From the NCBI RefSeq assembly GCF_022662575.1, contig NZ_JALBFU010000003.1, forward strand, positions 186,879 through 250,878: a stretch of 64,000 nucleotides of DNA, read 5' to 3'. The stretch comes from Luteimonas aquatica (lineage in GTDB: Bacteria > Pseudomonadota > Gammaproteobacteria > Xanthomonadales > Xanthomonadaceae). The notes below the pieces were generated by a model. That model did not search any database. It saw only the letters and a list, made by a program, of their open reading frames with translations, and was not told where the DNA came from. Below, piece after piece: positions 25,266 through 30,225 of the stretch (positions are counted from its first letter, which is position 1; every line of letters starts with the position of its first letter). A program made the translations under genes and the position numbers.

Positions 25266-26345
25266 TCAGGAAAGAATCCGCAACACATCGTCGATCAGCG
25301 CCGCCGCGGTGACCTCGGCGCCGGCGCCCGGCCCCTGGATCACCAGCGGCTGTTCCCGGTAGCGGTCGCTGCGGATCGCCACGCGGTTGTCGGTGCCGCT
25401 GCCGGCGCACAGCGGATGATCGGCCGGCAATGCCTGCAGGCCGACCTCGGCCCCGTCCGCGTCGAAGCGGCCGACGAAGCGCAGCTTCGCGCCCGCGCGC
25501 CGCGCCTCGAGCAGGCGGCGCTGCAGCGGATCGTCCAGCGCCTGCAGATTCGCGTCCACGCCATCCGCGGCGGCCTGCGCCAGCAAGGCCGGCACCAGCG
25601 AATCCACGCGCACCTCGTGCCCCTCCAGCGCGAAGCCGGCCGCGCGCGCCAGGATCAGCAGCTTGCGGCGCACATCCTCGCCGGACAGGTCCTGGCGCGG
25701 ATCGGGTTCGGTATAGCCGGCATCGCGCGCCTCGCGCACCAGCGCCGAGAACGGGCGATCGCCGTCGTAGCGGTCGAACAGCCAGGCCAGCGAACCCGAC
25801 AGTACGCCTTCCACGGCGTGGATGCGGTCGCCGCCGGCGACCAGTTCGCGGATCGAGCGCAGCAGCGGCAGCCCGGCGCCCACGGTGGCGGCATCGCCGT
25901 AGCGGGCGGCGCCCGCGCGCGCCGCGCGCACGATCGCCTGCGCGCGCAGCAGGTCGGCGCCGTTGCCGAGCTTGTTGGCGGTGACCACGTGCACGCCGTG
26001 CGCGACCCATTCGGCATGGCGGGCGGCGACCGCCTCGCTGGCGGTGGCGTCGACCACCACGTCGCCGCGCAGCAGGTGCGCATCGCGCACGGTCTGCGGA
26101 TCGCGGCCGGCCTCGGCGGCGTCGCCGGCCTGGCGCAGGGCATGGCCGGGATCCCCATTGCATGCGAACGCACCGCGCGAATTGGCCAGCAGCGCCAGCC
26201 GCGGCAAGGCCAGGCCGCGTTCGGCCAGGCGCTGCCAGCGCGAGACGAAGGCCGCGCCGACCGTGCCGGTGCCGATCAGCGTCAGGCTGGGCAGCGGCGC
26301 GGCGGTGGCCGCGCCGGATTCGCTGCGCGCGCCGAGCGTGCTCAT
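25266..26345 (-). CDS. hom: Homoserine dehydrogenase
   Basis: A 359-residue enzyme reducing aspartate semialdehyde to homoserine with NAD(P)H. The Rossmann motif L-I-G-T-G-T-V-G-A-A-F lies near residues 23-33. N-K-L-G-N-G-A-D, A-T-V-G-A-G-L-P-L-L and G-V-L-S-G-S-L-A-W-L with D-P-R-x-D-L-S-G-E-D-V-x-R-K form the substrate and catalytic regions. There is no ACT domain or aspartokinase, so it is a short, stand-alone form like the C-terminal half of ThrA/MetL. It is the last gene of the metX-metB-hom operon; its ATG overlaps the metB stop by 4 nt, and S-box control would extend to it. Confidence 0.93.
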   Translation of the reverse strand: MSTLGARSESGAATAAPLPSLTLIGTGTVGAAFVSRWQRLAERGLALPRLALLANSRGAFACNGDPGHALRQAGDAAEAGRDPQTVRDAHLLRGDVVVDATASEAVAARHAEWVAHGVHVVTANKLGNGADLLRAQAIVRAARAGAARYGDAATVGAGLPLLRSIRELVAGGDRIHAVEGVLSGSLAWLFDRYDGDRPFSALVREARDAGYTEPDPRQDLSGEDVRRKLLILARAAGFALEGHEVRVDSLVPALLAQAAADGVDANLQALDDPLQRRLLEARRAGAKLRFVGRFDADGAEVGLQALPADHPLCAGSGTDNRVAIRSDRYREQPLVIQGPGAGAEVTAAALIDDVLRILS

Positions 26346-27586
26346 GCGTCCACTCGTTTGCGCTGCTTGGCCTCGATCACCGCCTGCGCGCGCTCCAGCG
26401 CGGCAGCCAGGTCCGCCTGCAGGTCGTCCAGCGCCTCGATGCCCACCGACAGGCGCAGCAGGCCGTCGGAAATGCCCGCCTGCGCACGCGCCTCCGGCGA
26501 CATCGCGGCATGCGTCATGGTCGCAGGATGCGCGATCAGGCTCTCCACGCCGCCCAGCGATTCGGCCAGGGTGAAGCACTGCAGGCCTTCGAGGAAGGCG
26601 CATACCGTCGCCTCGTCGCCGTCCAGCTCCACCGACAGCATCGCGCCGAAGCCCTTCTGCTGGCGCGCGGCCAGCGCATGGCCCTGATGGTCGGCCAGGC
26701 CGGGGAAATAGACGCGGGCCACCGCCGGATGCGCATCGAGCTGCGCGGCGATCGCGGCCGCGTTCTCCTGGTGCACGCGCAGGCGGGCGTCGAGCGTGCG
26801 CAGCCCGCGCAGGGTGAGGAAGCTGTCGAACGGCGAGCCGGTGATGCCGAGCGCATTGGCCCACCACACGAACTGCTCGTGCACCGCCGGGTCCTTCGCC
26901 ACCACCGCGCCACCGACCACGTCGCTGTGGCCGTTGATGTACTTGGTGGTCGAGTGCACCACCACGTCGGCGCCGAAATCGGCGATCGGCCGCTGCAGCG
27001 CCGGCGACAGGAAGGTGTTGTCGACCACGGCCTGCGCGCCGGCCTTGTGCGCGGCGTCGATCACGAAGCGCAGGTCGGTGATGCGCAGCAGGGGGTTGGA
27101 CGGCGTCTCGATCAGCACCAGCGTCGGCGACTGCGCCAGCGCCTCGGCCAGCGAGCGCGGATCGGTGAGGTCGGCGGTAATCAGCTCGAAATGCCCCTTC
27201 TTCGCCAATGCGTTGAACAGCCGCCAGCTGCCGCCGTAGGCGTCGTGCGGCACCACCAGGCGGTCGCCCGGCTTGAGCAGCGCGTGCAGCACCAGCGTGA
27301 TCGCGCCCATGCCGGTCGCGGTGACCACGCCGCCGGCGCCGCCTTCCAGTTCGGCCAGCGCCTCGCCCAGCAGGTCGCGCGTGGGATTGCCGCTGCGCGT
27401 GTAGTCGTACTGGCGCTTCTGGTTGAAGCCGGTGAAGCTGAAGTTGGACGACAGCACCAGCGGCGGGGTGACCGCGCCGAAGGCGGTGTCGCGGTCGATT
27501 CCGGCGCGCACGGCACGGGTGGCGGAGGCGAAGCCGTCGCCGGGACAGCCGTCGATGCCGGCGCCGCTGTGGTGGGGGTGGGTCAT
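26342..27586 (-). CDS. metB: Cystathionine gamma-synthase (O-succinylhomoserine thiol-lyase)
   Basis: A 414-residue PLP enzyme of the Cys/Met metabolism family. It joins acylhomoserine and cysteine, or possibly sulfide, on the way to methionine. Y-D-Y-T-R-S-G-N-P-T-R is the phosphate-binding signature, V-V-D-N-T-F holds the PLP-ring Asp, and K215 in H-S-T-T-K-Y-I-N-G-H is the Schiff-base lysine. The N-terminus is extended by about 25 residues. It is coupled by 4-nt overlaps to metX upstream and hom downstream. MetB and MetZ activities cannot be separated from sequence alone. Confidence 0.92.
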   Translation of the reverse strand: MTHPHHSGAGIDGCPGDGFASATRAVRAGIDRDTAFGAVTPPLVLSSNFSFTGFNQKRQYDYTRSGNPTRDLLGEALAELEGGAGGVVTATGMGAITLVLHALLKPGDRLVVPHDAYGGSWRLFNALAKKGHFELITADLTDPRSLAEALAQSPTLVLIETPSNPLLRITDLRFVIDAAHKAGAQAVVDNTFLSPALQRPIADFGADVVVHSTTKYINGHSDVVGGAVVAKDPAVHEQFVWWANALGITGSPFDSFLTLRGLRTLDARLRVHQENAAAIAAQLDAHPAVARVYFPGLADHQGHALAARQQKGFGAMLSVELDGDEATVCAFLEGLQCFTLAESLGGVESLIAHPATMTHAAMSPEARAQAGISDGLLRLSVGIEALDDLQADLAAALERAQAVIEAKQRKRVDA

Positions 27587-28647
27587 GCCGCTTCTCCTTG
27601 GTTCTGGTTGCGCAGCGCAGCGGCCAGGATGGCGTCGATGCGGTCGGTTTCTTTGAGGAAGGCGTCGTGGCCGTAGGGCGAGCGCAGCACGCGCAGCTGC
27701 CCGCGGGTGCCCAGGCCCTCGACCAGGGCGACGGAGTCGCTCAGCGGGACCAGACGGTCGCCCTCGACGGCCACCACGGTGGTGGGCACGCGCACGGCCG
27801 CCGGATCGACGCGGTGCAGATCGATCGACTCCGACAGCCGCAGCCACGCCGTCACCGGCGTGCGCGCCACGTACTGCGCGCCGGCCGCGTCGAGGTAGTC
27901 CTCGGCGGCCACGCGCACGCGGCCGTTGACCACGGCGGGCGGCGCGTCGAAGCGCTCGGAGAATTCCTCGGGCGTGCGGTAGCTGAGCATCGCGAACTGG
28001 CGCGCCAGCGACAGCCCCTGCGAGTCGGCGCACTGCAGCTGGCCCAGCGCCACCGCCTTGCGCTGCAGCGCGCGCCAGGCGGCCGCATAGGGATGGGCGC
28101 GGTGCGCGCCGCTCACCGCCACCAGCTTGCGCAGCCGCCGGGCGTGGCGCACGGCCAGCTGCAGGCCGACCAGCGCGCCGTACGAATAGCCGACGAAGGC
28201 GCGCAGCGTGTCGATGCCGAGCGCGTCGAGCAGCGCCGCGATCGCGTCGGCCTGGTCGGCGCAGTCGATCGGCGCGTCGAGGCGGCCGTCGGCGCCGACG
28301 TAGTCGAAGGCGAGGATGCGCGTGCGCGACGGATCGAGCGCGCGCTCCGCGCCCACCAGGCCCTCGGCCCAGCCCTTCTCGGCGAAGACCGCGTTGGCCG
28401 AGACGTGCTTGTGCGCGGAAATGCCGCCGGCGACGAACACCACCGGCGCGCCCGCGGCGCCGACCAGTTCGTAGGACAGCCGCAGGCGACGCGTGCCGGC
28501 GTGACGCATCGCCAGCTCCACCTCGACGTGGCCGCGCACGGCCTGCGCGCCGATGCCGGCGGCGTAGGAGATCGCGTGCAGCGGCAGCGACGGCGAATCG
28601 AAGGAGGCGGCGGAGGCGGCGGAGGCGGCGACGTCGACGAAACTCAT
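27583..28647 (-). CDS. metX: Homoserine O-acyltransferase, MetX type
   Basis: A 354-residue alpha/beta-fold acyltransferase that activates homoserine. The nucleophile S155 is in F-V-G-Y-S-Y-G-A-L-V; the acid is probably in V-E-G-D-R-L-V-P-L-S-D and the base in S-P-Y-G-H-D-A-F-L. It is shorter than MetX of other groups. In Xanthomonadaceae this branch is reported to use succinyl-CoA (from memory), but specificity is not visible directly. The ATG at 28647 begins M-S-F-V-D-V; it is the first gene of the operon behind a 330-nt leader that contains the SAM riboswitch. Confidence 0.9.
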   Translation of the reverse strand: MSFVDVAASAASAASFDSPSLPLHAISYAAGIGAQAVRGHVEVELAMRHAGTRRLRLSYELVGAAGAPVVFVAGGISAHKHVSANAVFAEKGWAEGLVGAERALDPSRTRILAFDYVGADGRLDAPIDCADQADAIAALLDALGIDTLRAFVGYSYGALVGLQLAVRHARRLRKLVAVSGAHRAHPYAAAWRALQRKAVALGQLQCADSQGLSLARQFAMLSYRTPEEFSERFDAPPAVVNGRVRVAAEDYLDAAGAQYVARTPVTAWLRLSESIDLHRVDPAAVRVPTTVVAVEGDRLVPLSDSVALVEGLGTRGQLRVLRSPYGHDAFLKETDRIDAILAAALRNQNQGEAA

Positions 28648-28763
28648 GGACTTCTTTCCCGATGCTTGTTGGAAAGTCCGCGCATCGAACCGCGCCGTCG
28701 GCGCGGTGAGGCGTGCGGGCCTTGCGGAAACATCCGCAACGCCATCGATGCCCATGGGGATAC

Positions 28764-28790
28764 CGGAAGAAGCCGACGGCGGGCGTCGGC
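28764..28790 (-). terminator. Intrinsic terminator of the SAM riboswitch leader
   Basis: Arms GCCGACG and CGTCGGC pair perfectly around a 5-nt loop and are followed by TTCTTCC. It lies about 35 nt after the aptamer and 117 nt before metX, the place for an expression-platform terminator. The T-tract is modest. Confidence 0.55.
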
Positions 28791-28823
28791 GGATGCGGCG
28801 ACCGCGCCTGTCGTGGCGGTCGC

Positions 28824-28984
28824 GCAACCATCTTCCGGTGGACGCTCAGGTCCCCGCAGGACTTGGCACCGCGACGGGGCGGCAGGCGGTCGACAGGCCC
28901 GAACGGCGCAGTCGAACGTCTTGCTTCCCCATCAGGTTGCCCCGGCGTCTTCGGGCCTGTCCCTCAGCCGGTCTCGATGGATGC
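28824..28984 (-). promoter_or_regulatory. SAM-I (S-box) riboswitch of the metX-metB-hom operon
   Basis: Read on the minus strand, the leader has the S-box signatures in order. These are GAGGGACAGGCCCGAAGA, CCGGGGCAACCTG (K-turn and P2/P3 strands), GGTGCCAAGTCCTGC, a P4 hairpin GGAC-CTGAGC-GTCC, and GGAAGATGG. P1 forms between CCATC (28976-28980) and GATGG (28828-28832) and extends outward by three more pairs past one mismatch. P3 carries an insert of about 60 nt compared with the classic form. When S-adenosylmethionine binds, expression of the downstream genes should fall. Confidence 0.87.
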
Positions 28985-28989
28985 CGCAT

Positions 28990-29018
28990 AGGTTGCCAGC
29001 GCTTTCGAGCACTGTCAA
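28990..29018 (-). promoter_or_regulatory. Promoter of the met operon leader
   Basis: On the minus strand a perfect TTGACA (29018-29013) is followed after 17 nt by CAACCT, a poor -10 box (28995-28990). The predicted start, near 28983, is at the first base of riboswitch helix P1, which supports the assignment. Confidence 0.5.
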
Positions 29019-29198
29019 TCGCTTCATCGGCATGAAGCGATACGATTTCTCGTGAAACCACCCGCCCGGCGCCGCCCGGCAGCCATCCGCGATGTCGGGA
29101 ACCGGCCTGCCAATCCGTTGAGTTTCAATGGGTTCCGGCCAATCCGGCATCGCCTCGCCGCGATCCGGCCCGTACACGCGAATTCCCCACGACTCCCG

Positions 29199-29204
29199 CA
29201 TAAT
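29199..29204 (+). promoter_or_regulatory. -10 element abutting the lipoprotein gene start
   Basis: CATAAT (5 of 6 matches) ends 7 nt before the ATG at 29212 with no ribosome-binding site between, again suggesting a leaderless mRNA. Confidence 0.5.
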
Positions 29205-29211
29205 CCGCGCC

Positions 29212-30225
29212 ATGCCGCTTCGACTCCCACGCCCCGCCTGGCGCGCCGCCGCCGGACTCCGCCGCGCTGCGGCCGCGCCGCGGCCGGGAAACGGCGCGCG
29301 GCGCCTGGCCTGGCTGCTGGCCACGGCCACGCTCGCGGGCTGCACCACGGTCGAGGTGACGCGGCCGCTGCCGCCCTTGCTGCCGGCCGCCTCCGGCCCC
29401 GTGGTCCCCGAGCGCTACCTGGCCGCCGGCCCCGCCGGCATCCGCTTCAACGCCCTCGCCACCTGGCCGACCGAAAGCGGCGGCGCCTGGCTGATCGCCG
29501 GATCGGCCGCCGGGCATGCGCTGACGGTGTTCGACGCCGACAGCGGCGCGCAGGTGCGCGAGATCGACGGCCGCACCGCGACACCCGGCCCGATGCTCGA
29601 GCCGACCGCGCTCGCGGTGTTCGGCGACCGCCTGTTCGTCGCCGAGGCCGGCGCCAATCGCGTGGAAGTGCTGTCGTTGCCGGACTTCGCCCGCCTCGGC
29701 GCGTTCGGCGCCGGCGAGCTGCGCGCGCCCGGCGGCTTGTGGATCCGCGAACGCGGTCCCGAGGAGCTGGCGGTCTACGTCGCCGACGCCTCCCGCGGCA
29801 AGGCCGGCGGCTACCGCTACCGCGTCGAATTCGACGAGGAAGGCCGCCTGCGCGCGCAGGCGGAAACGCCCTTCGAGCATCTGGGCGAACCCGATACCGG
29901 CGATGGCCTGCCGCCCGACAGCTATCACGACACCGCTACCGGCATCGCCTGGTGGTCCTGCGGCACCGATGCCGGCTACTGGGTGGCGATCGACTCCGGC
30001 ACCGCGCCCACGCGCTTCCAGGTGTTCGACCGCGCTCTGGCGCCGCGCGGCGCCTTCCGCGGCGCGACCGTCGACGGCAGCCGGGCCATCGCCGTGTATG
30101 CGCCGGGCACCGCGCAGTTCCCGTTCGGCGCCCTGTTCGCCCTGCATGGCGACGGATCGGTGGCGGCCTTCGACCTGGGCGACGTCGTGCGCGCGCTGCA
30201 GCTCGATCCGGCGTGCACGCAATGA
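29212..30225 (+). CDS. Putative lipoprotein, beta-propeller-like
   Basis: A 337-residue protein with an Arg-rich start, a hydrophobic stretch and a lipobox L-A-G-C (Cys ~43), so it is probably an outer- or inner-membrane lipoprotein. Repeated blocks such as L-T-V-F-D-A-D-S-G-A-Q-V-R-E-I-D-G, D-R-L-F-V-A-E-A-G-A-N-R-V-E-V and Y-V-A-D-A-S-R-G suggest a beta-propeller, perhaps phytase-like or NHL-like. I do not see phytase catalytic residues clearly enough to assign activity. It is coupled by a 4-nt overlap to the M23 peptidase gene. Confidence 0.75.
   Translation: MPLRLPRPAWRAAAGLRRAAAAPRPGNGARRLAWLLATATLAGCTTVEVTRPLPPLLPAASGPVVPERYLAAGPAGIRFNALATWPTESGGAWLIAGSAAGHALTVFDADSGAQVREIDGRTATPGPMLEPTALAVFGDRLFVAEAGANRVEVLSLPDFARLGAFGAGELRAPGGLWIRERGPEELAVYVADASRGKAGGYRYRVEFDEEGRLRAQAETPFEHLGEPDTGDGLPPDSYHDTATGIAWWSCGTDAGYWVAIDSGTAPTRFQVFDRALAPRGAFRGATVDGSRAIAVYAPGTAQFPFGALFALHGDGSVAAFDLGDVVRALQLDPACTQ

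Follow-up and report, generated by a model that had tools for sequence, protein, structure and literature searches.

The 64,000-nt stretch of DNA analysed here (the window) carries, in the leader of metX-metB-hom, an S-box (SAM-I) riboswitch whose P3 arm is enlarged and contains a perfect 12-nt complement to part of the aptamer core. This raises the question of whether the RNA has a second switch, in which the insert pairs with the core and dismantles P2 and P3, as was proposed in an initial annotation of the locus. The data presented below point to a simpler answer, which we hold to be very probably correct: a standard translational SAM-I riboswitch of a Xanthomonadaceae met operon with a private elongation of P3, in which the 12-nt complement plays no part in regulation and would pair, if at all, only briefly while the RNA is being transcribed. 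All window features described lie on the minus strand.

A single SAM-I aptamer upstream of metX-metB-hom

A covariance model search (cmscan) of the minus strand returned a match to RF00162 at 28825-28983, covering the complete model (positions 1-108) from P1 to P1' with a score of 65.1 bits (E 7.1e-13; the gathering score is 44.4 bits). The S-box core that had been noted in the metX leader is thus a full-length SAM-I aptamer, and it is the only SAM-I copy in the 3.8 Mb genome. Its letters fit the RF00162 consensus for a four-helix core (P1-P4) with a kink-turn in P2 and a pseudoknot between the P2b loop and J3-4, and the core letters are invariant across 49 homologues. In the cmscan alignment P2a, the kink-turn and P2b with its pseudoknot loop ACAGG occupy 28942-28971, the P2a and P2b pairs being almost invariant in the 49 sequences. 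The P4 hairpin CGGGGACCUGAGCGUCCACCG was placed at 28836-28856 by the same alignment and by covariation analysis.

The S-box lies upstream of metX-metB-hom, a methionine/SAM gene setting. Profile matches agree with the gene order given by the initial annotation: metX (27583-28647) encodes homoserine O-succinyltransferase MetX (NF006449, 556 bits, above cut-off), metB (26342-27590, start approximate) encodes cystathionine gamma-synthase (NF006450, 771 bits; TIGR02080, 577 bits; both above cut-offs) and hom (25266-26340, start approximate) encodes a homoserine dehydrogenase domain (homoserine dehydrogenase part of PRK09436, 307.8 bits, below the equivalog cut-off). Upstream of P1 a putative promoter spans 28990-29018, with a -35 box TTGACA (29013-29018), a 17-nt spacer and a -10 box CAACCT (28990-28995). 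The motif ATTGACA is present in 106/121 leaders, and the -10 box was placed by its spacing and by the likeness of GGCAACCT/GGCATCGT in homologues; a strict promoter scanner did not report this predicted -35/-10 promoter. The transcript would accordingly be expected to start at or near P1. Abutting the -35 box is a 24-bp palindrome, ATCGCTTCATGCCGATGAAGCGAT (29018-29041), and a palindrome-like motif was seen in 108/121 leaders. SamR sites are 24-bp palindromes of the form ATC...GAT (Leyn et al. 2014, PMC4239095), a description that ATCGCTTCATGCCGATGAAGCGAT fits, making it a candidate operator to which SamR may bind. If so, the operon would be under DNA-level plus RNA-level control.

P3 is a variable arm that is selected to form

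P3 (28865-28941) was resolved by cmscan and folding into a conserved GGCAACC/GGUGCC base, an outer stem formed by UGAUGGGG (28927-28934) and CCCCGUCG (28872-28879), which is kept in the window, and a private apical extension. The interior, measured from GGCAACC to GGTGCCAA, is 64 nt long, and cmscan scores 57 nt as an insertion relative to the Rfam model. The enlargement of P3 is therefore real. However, the figure of about 60 extra nucleotides that had been put on it holds only when the Rfam consensus is the yardstick; the P3 interiors of genus mates are mostly 29-37 nt long, with one of 48, leaving a private excess of ~27-35 nt. The apical segment of 47 nt (28880-28926), predicted to prolong the P3 hairpin by imperfect pairing, has no counterpart in any relative examined. 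An origin of the insert as a dispersed repeat was considered and rejected, the genome yielding weak partial matches alone (best 96% over 23 nt).

SAM-I riboswitches were found in 364/395 family genomes and in 44/52 genus genomes, with rare exceptions as a single copy, with match lengths across the genus of 118-142 nt in other members and 159 in the window. One record titled Bacillus subtilis SK7B5 has a Stenotrophomonas-like metX with a SAM-I leader, and is probably contaminated or mislabelled. Selection of leaders by regular expressions, which miss some divergent ones, gave 137 loci including that of the window, and these reduce to 94 distinct core and P3 sequences. P3 interiors range from 12 to 48 nt in the other 93. 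An exact pattern, GGCAACC N50-80 GGTGCCAA, was also searched for in the 395 family genomes; among the matches listed the window has the sole S-box with a truly long P3, and the others are seemingly unrelated sequence or start at a GGCAACC just upstream of P1. A different 48-nt P3, a nearly perfect pyrimidine/purine hairpin (TCCCCCTCCCTTCCC...GGGAAGGGAGGGGGA), was observed in a further genome of the genus (L085:1500-1645). Given that another long P3 exists, the length of this arm is simply variable.

The consensus fold of 49 aptamers yields P1-P4, with compensatory changes at seven pairs of the distal P3 stem. Cells changed on both sides of this stem number 83 compared with 34.5 in shuffles, and 95% of cells are paired compared with 34-48% when the stem is slid. 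These compensatory changes show that P3 is selected to form. P3 is best read as a tolerant side hairpin that has grown to 64 nt in the lineage of the window.

The 12-nt complement is private to the window

As the initial annotation had it, TTCGGGCCTGTC (28892-28903), within the insert, and GACAGGCCCGAA (28950-28961) are perfect reverse complements of each other. A search of the 3.8 Mb genome found the 12-mer at two places only, one per strand, which are this pair. The core partner had been described as the 5' strand of P2. A closer inspection reveals that it runs from the last G of the P2b 5' strand through the ACAGG loop of the pseudoknot and the CCC of the P2b 3' strand into the GAA of the kink-turn. 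All 49 aligned leaders share the core strand GACAGGCCC without variation, whereas its partner strand occurs in the window alone. In all 93 other distinct sequences P3 lacks the complementarity to P2, the longest perfect complement between the P3 interior and the P2 region being 3-7 nt compared with 12 in the window. This is the outcome that the initial annotation had named as refuting its proposal. Two Luteimonas-group relatives have a 7-nt GACAGGC/GCCTGTC match within P3. The nearest relative found by metX, L. panaciterrae (87% identity), which places the window in Luteimonas or close to that genus, shares an identical AGACC-GGCAACC core with the window and has a 37-nt P3 interior without the complement. 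No conserved or covarying complement between the P3 insert and P2 emerged from these comparisons, in which the covariation counts for this pairing rest on almost no cells.

Folding of transcripts of rising length, under an energy model without the pseudoknot, the kink-turn or SAM, gave the alternative 12-bp helix a probability of ~0.98 at 95-108 nt, 0.37 at 112 nt and <0.02 from 120 nt, so that the alternative fold is negligible once P3 is complete. For the complete aptamer, the energies were -69.6 kcal/mol for the alternative fold, -76.0 kcal/mol for the canonical fold and -79.5 kcal/mol for the unconstrained minimum; the alternative helix lies 6-10 kcal/mol above competing folds and has a probability of 0.00. 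In transcripts of at least 250 nt the forced canonical fold was slightly worse than the forced alternative, yet the ensemble probability of the alternative was still 0.00. Moreover, P2 is predicted to form ahead of synthesis of the insert. To reach the alternative helix from P2, the RNA would have to cross a barrier of 23-25 kcal/mol at the relevant lengths; this is a direct-path estimate by a method that overestimates, although the value is still very large.

These results bear on what, if anything, the complement does. Were the insert an anti-core strand, with the RNA toggling between a SAM-binding fold and one in which P2 and P3 are rewired, it would add a second layer of control, and the exact match to an essential P2b/pseudoknot/kink-turn segment, its rarity in shuffled inserts (p ~7e-4, below) and the preference of truncated transcripts for the alternative helix all speak for such a switch. 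However, every relative examined lacks the complement, the predicted probability of the helix is 0.00 at full length, the toggle would have to melt a P3 stem that compensatory changes maintain, and P2 is predicted to precede the insert and to be protected by the large, if overestimated, barrier. The second switch claimed by the initial annotation is thus unsupported by homologues, energetics or P3 covariation, and we regard it as very improbable. An equally slight chance is given to a co-transcriptional checkpoint, in which the 12-bp helix would exist briefly in nascent RNA, delay aptamer folding and tune the SAM response until the 3' strand of P3 emerges; if true, this would be a natural case of a peripheral helix slowing aptamer folding. 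The reading of an ordinary riboswitch with a private P3 elongation has points against it as well: a 12-nt match is improbable at this spot and neither of its strands recurs elsewhere in the genome, nascent RNA of ~95-108 nt is predicted to favour the helix, the expression platform departs from that of relatives, and the energy model takes no account of the pseudoknot, the kink-turn or SAM.

Under this reading of an ordinary riboswitch the complement would be a by-product of the growth of P3, arising by chance or by a local inverted-duplication mutation. Dinucleotide-preserving shuffles of the insert reached a complement of at least 12 nt to the 49-nt 5' core in 14/20,000 cases (~7e-4), which counts against chance. 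Yet in this GC-rich window of 64 kb, perfect inverted repeats of 12 bp or longer that span no more than 120 nt were counted at 10 separate places; the match is therefore locally unlikely and at the same time unremarkable for a reader of the whole window. Plain chance in GC-rich sequence seems the somewhat better account of its origin. A neutral template switch (inverted duplication) within the loop of P3, which may have lengthened an already existing short GCCTGTC match to 12 nt, is possible but less likely. Consistent with it are the presence of GCCTGTC in some Luteimonas P3 stems, the 7-nt match in the two Luteimonas-group relatives, the uniqueness of the 12-mer apart from the pair, and a nearest relative that has the identical core without the complement. 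On the other hand, the match ends abruptly at 12 nt, the remaining extra sequence is left unexplained, and GCCTGTC in the window sits elsewhere than the P3 stem strand of the relatives.

The expression platform

Downstream of the aptamer lies a P6-like hairpin, GCCGACG-CCCGC-CGUCGGC (28772-28790), and several Luteimonas leaders have a hairpin like it. It is followed by UUCUUCC without a U-run, and a terminator scanner found no intrinsic terminator in 28600-29400, so that the terminator previously annotated at 28764-28790 is not upheld. Firmicutes S-boxes of the terminating type have an intrinsic terminator with a U-run in the expression platform. The locus does not fit this type, no intrinsic terminator having been found in 28600-29400.

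Two other elements are likelier switching helices. UCUUCCGGU (28762-28770) is a 9-nt complement of ACCGGAAGA (28831-28839) at the P4/P1' junction; shorter versions of this complement are visible in several Luteimonas leaders, and the pair may form an alternative helix when SAM is absent. CAUCGAUGGC (28741-28750) is a putative anti-P1/anti-AUG element, in which UCGAUGG complements CCAUCGA of the P1 5' strand. GAUGG follows P1 in 90/121 leaders, and 67/121 have GAUGGC with GCC[AG]UG further downstream, around the start codon. GAUGGC is present in the window together with a predicted Shine-Dalgarno hairpin, but the start-codon partner GCCAUG reads UCCAUG. The hairpin, GGACUUUCC/GGGAAAGAAGUCC (28648-28679; base-pair probabilities 0.4-0.8), encloses the Shine-Dalgarno region immediately upstream of the metX AUG, and among the genomes compared (L. 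panaciterrae and others) its form is private to the window, where it stands in for the AUGGC/GCCAUG arrangement of the family. The distance from the P4 side to the AUG is ~209 nt compared with a median of 112 in leaders.

Binding of SAM by the P1-P4 core would close P1 and thereby set free the anti-AUG GAUGGC further downstream, along with elements next to it. With P1 closed, the ribosome-binding region of metX would be held in hairpins and metX-metB-hom repressed. Without SAM, CCAUCGA of P1 would pair with UCGAUGG, and ACCGGAAGA with UCUUCCGGU, freeing translation. We infer this translational mode and the helices assigned to it; translational control by SAM has been shown for the X. campestris homologue (PMC7270179).

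A hairpin resembling a terminator, CCGCACA-TCCC-TGTGCGG ACTTTTC, lies between the anti-AUG and the start codon of L. panaciterrae (L002:2458-2475), and 28671-28723 is its degenerate, longer counterpart in the window. A lineage-specific addition of transcriptional control is possible.

Comparison with known systems

The SAM-I riboswitch of the X. campestris met operon (SAM-IXcc) has been studied experimentally, and SAM binding has been shown (Tang et al. 2020, PMC7270179). SAM-IXcc lacks a rho-independent terminator and acts mainly on translation. Uncharged tRNAfMet binds to its platform in a mode that is not simple base pairing; the anti-AUG of SAM-IXcc, AUGGC, is the counterpart of the 28741-28750 element (PMC7270179). 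The window resembles SAM-IXcc in operon type, aptamer core, a leader in which no intrinsic terminator was found and the putative anti-AUG GAUGGC, and by analogy its aptamer would be expected to bind SAM. It differs in its Shine-Dalgarno hairpin and spacing to the AUG, and in its 64-nt P3 interior, those of Xanthomonas being ~24-26 nt. Since the platform of the window differs from that of relatives in both length and its private hairpin, details from X. campestris are not simply transferable.

Relative to the RF00162 SAM riboswitch (S box leader), the window matches the complete model with all helices, the 57-nt insertion in the P3 arm being the difference. Unlike the terminating S-boxes of Firmicutes, no rho-independent terminator was found in its leader. 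L. panaciterrae differs in having the terminator-like hairpin, the usual GCCAUG start context, which the window lacks, and the shorter P3 without the complement. The two leaders nevertheless have in common the identical core, the same P6-like hairpin and an enlarged expression platform.
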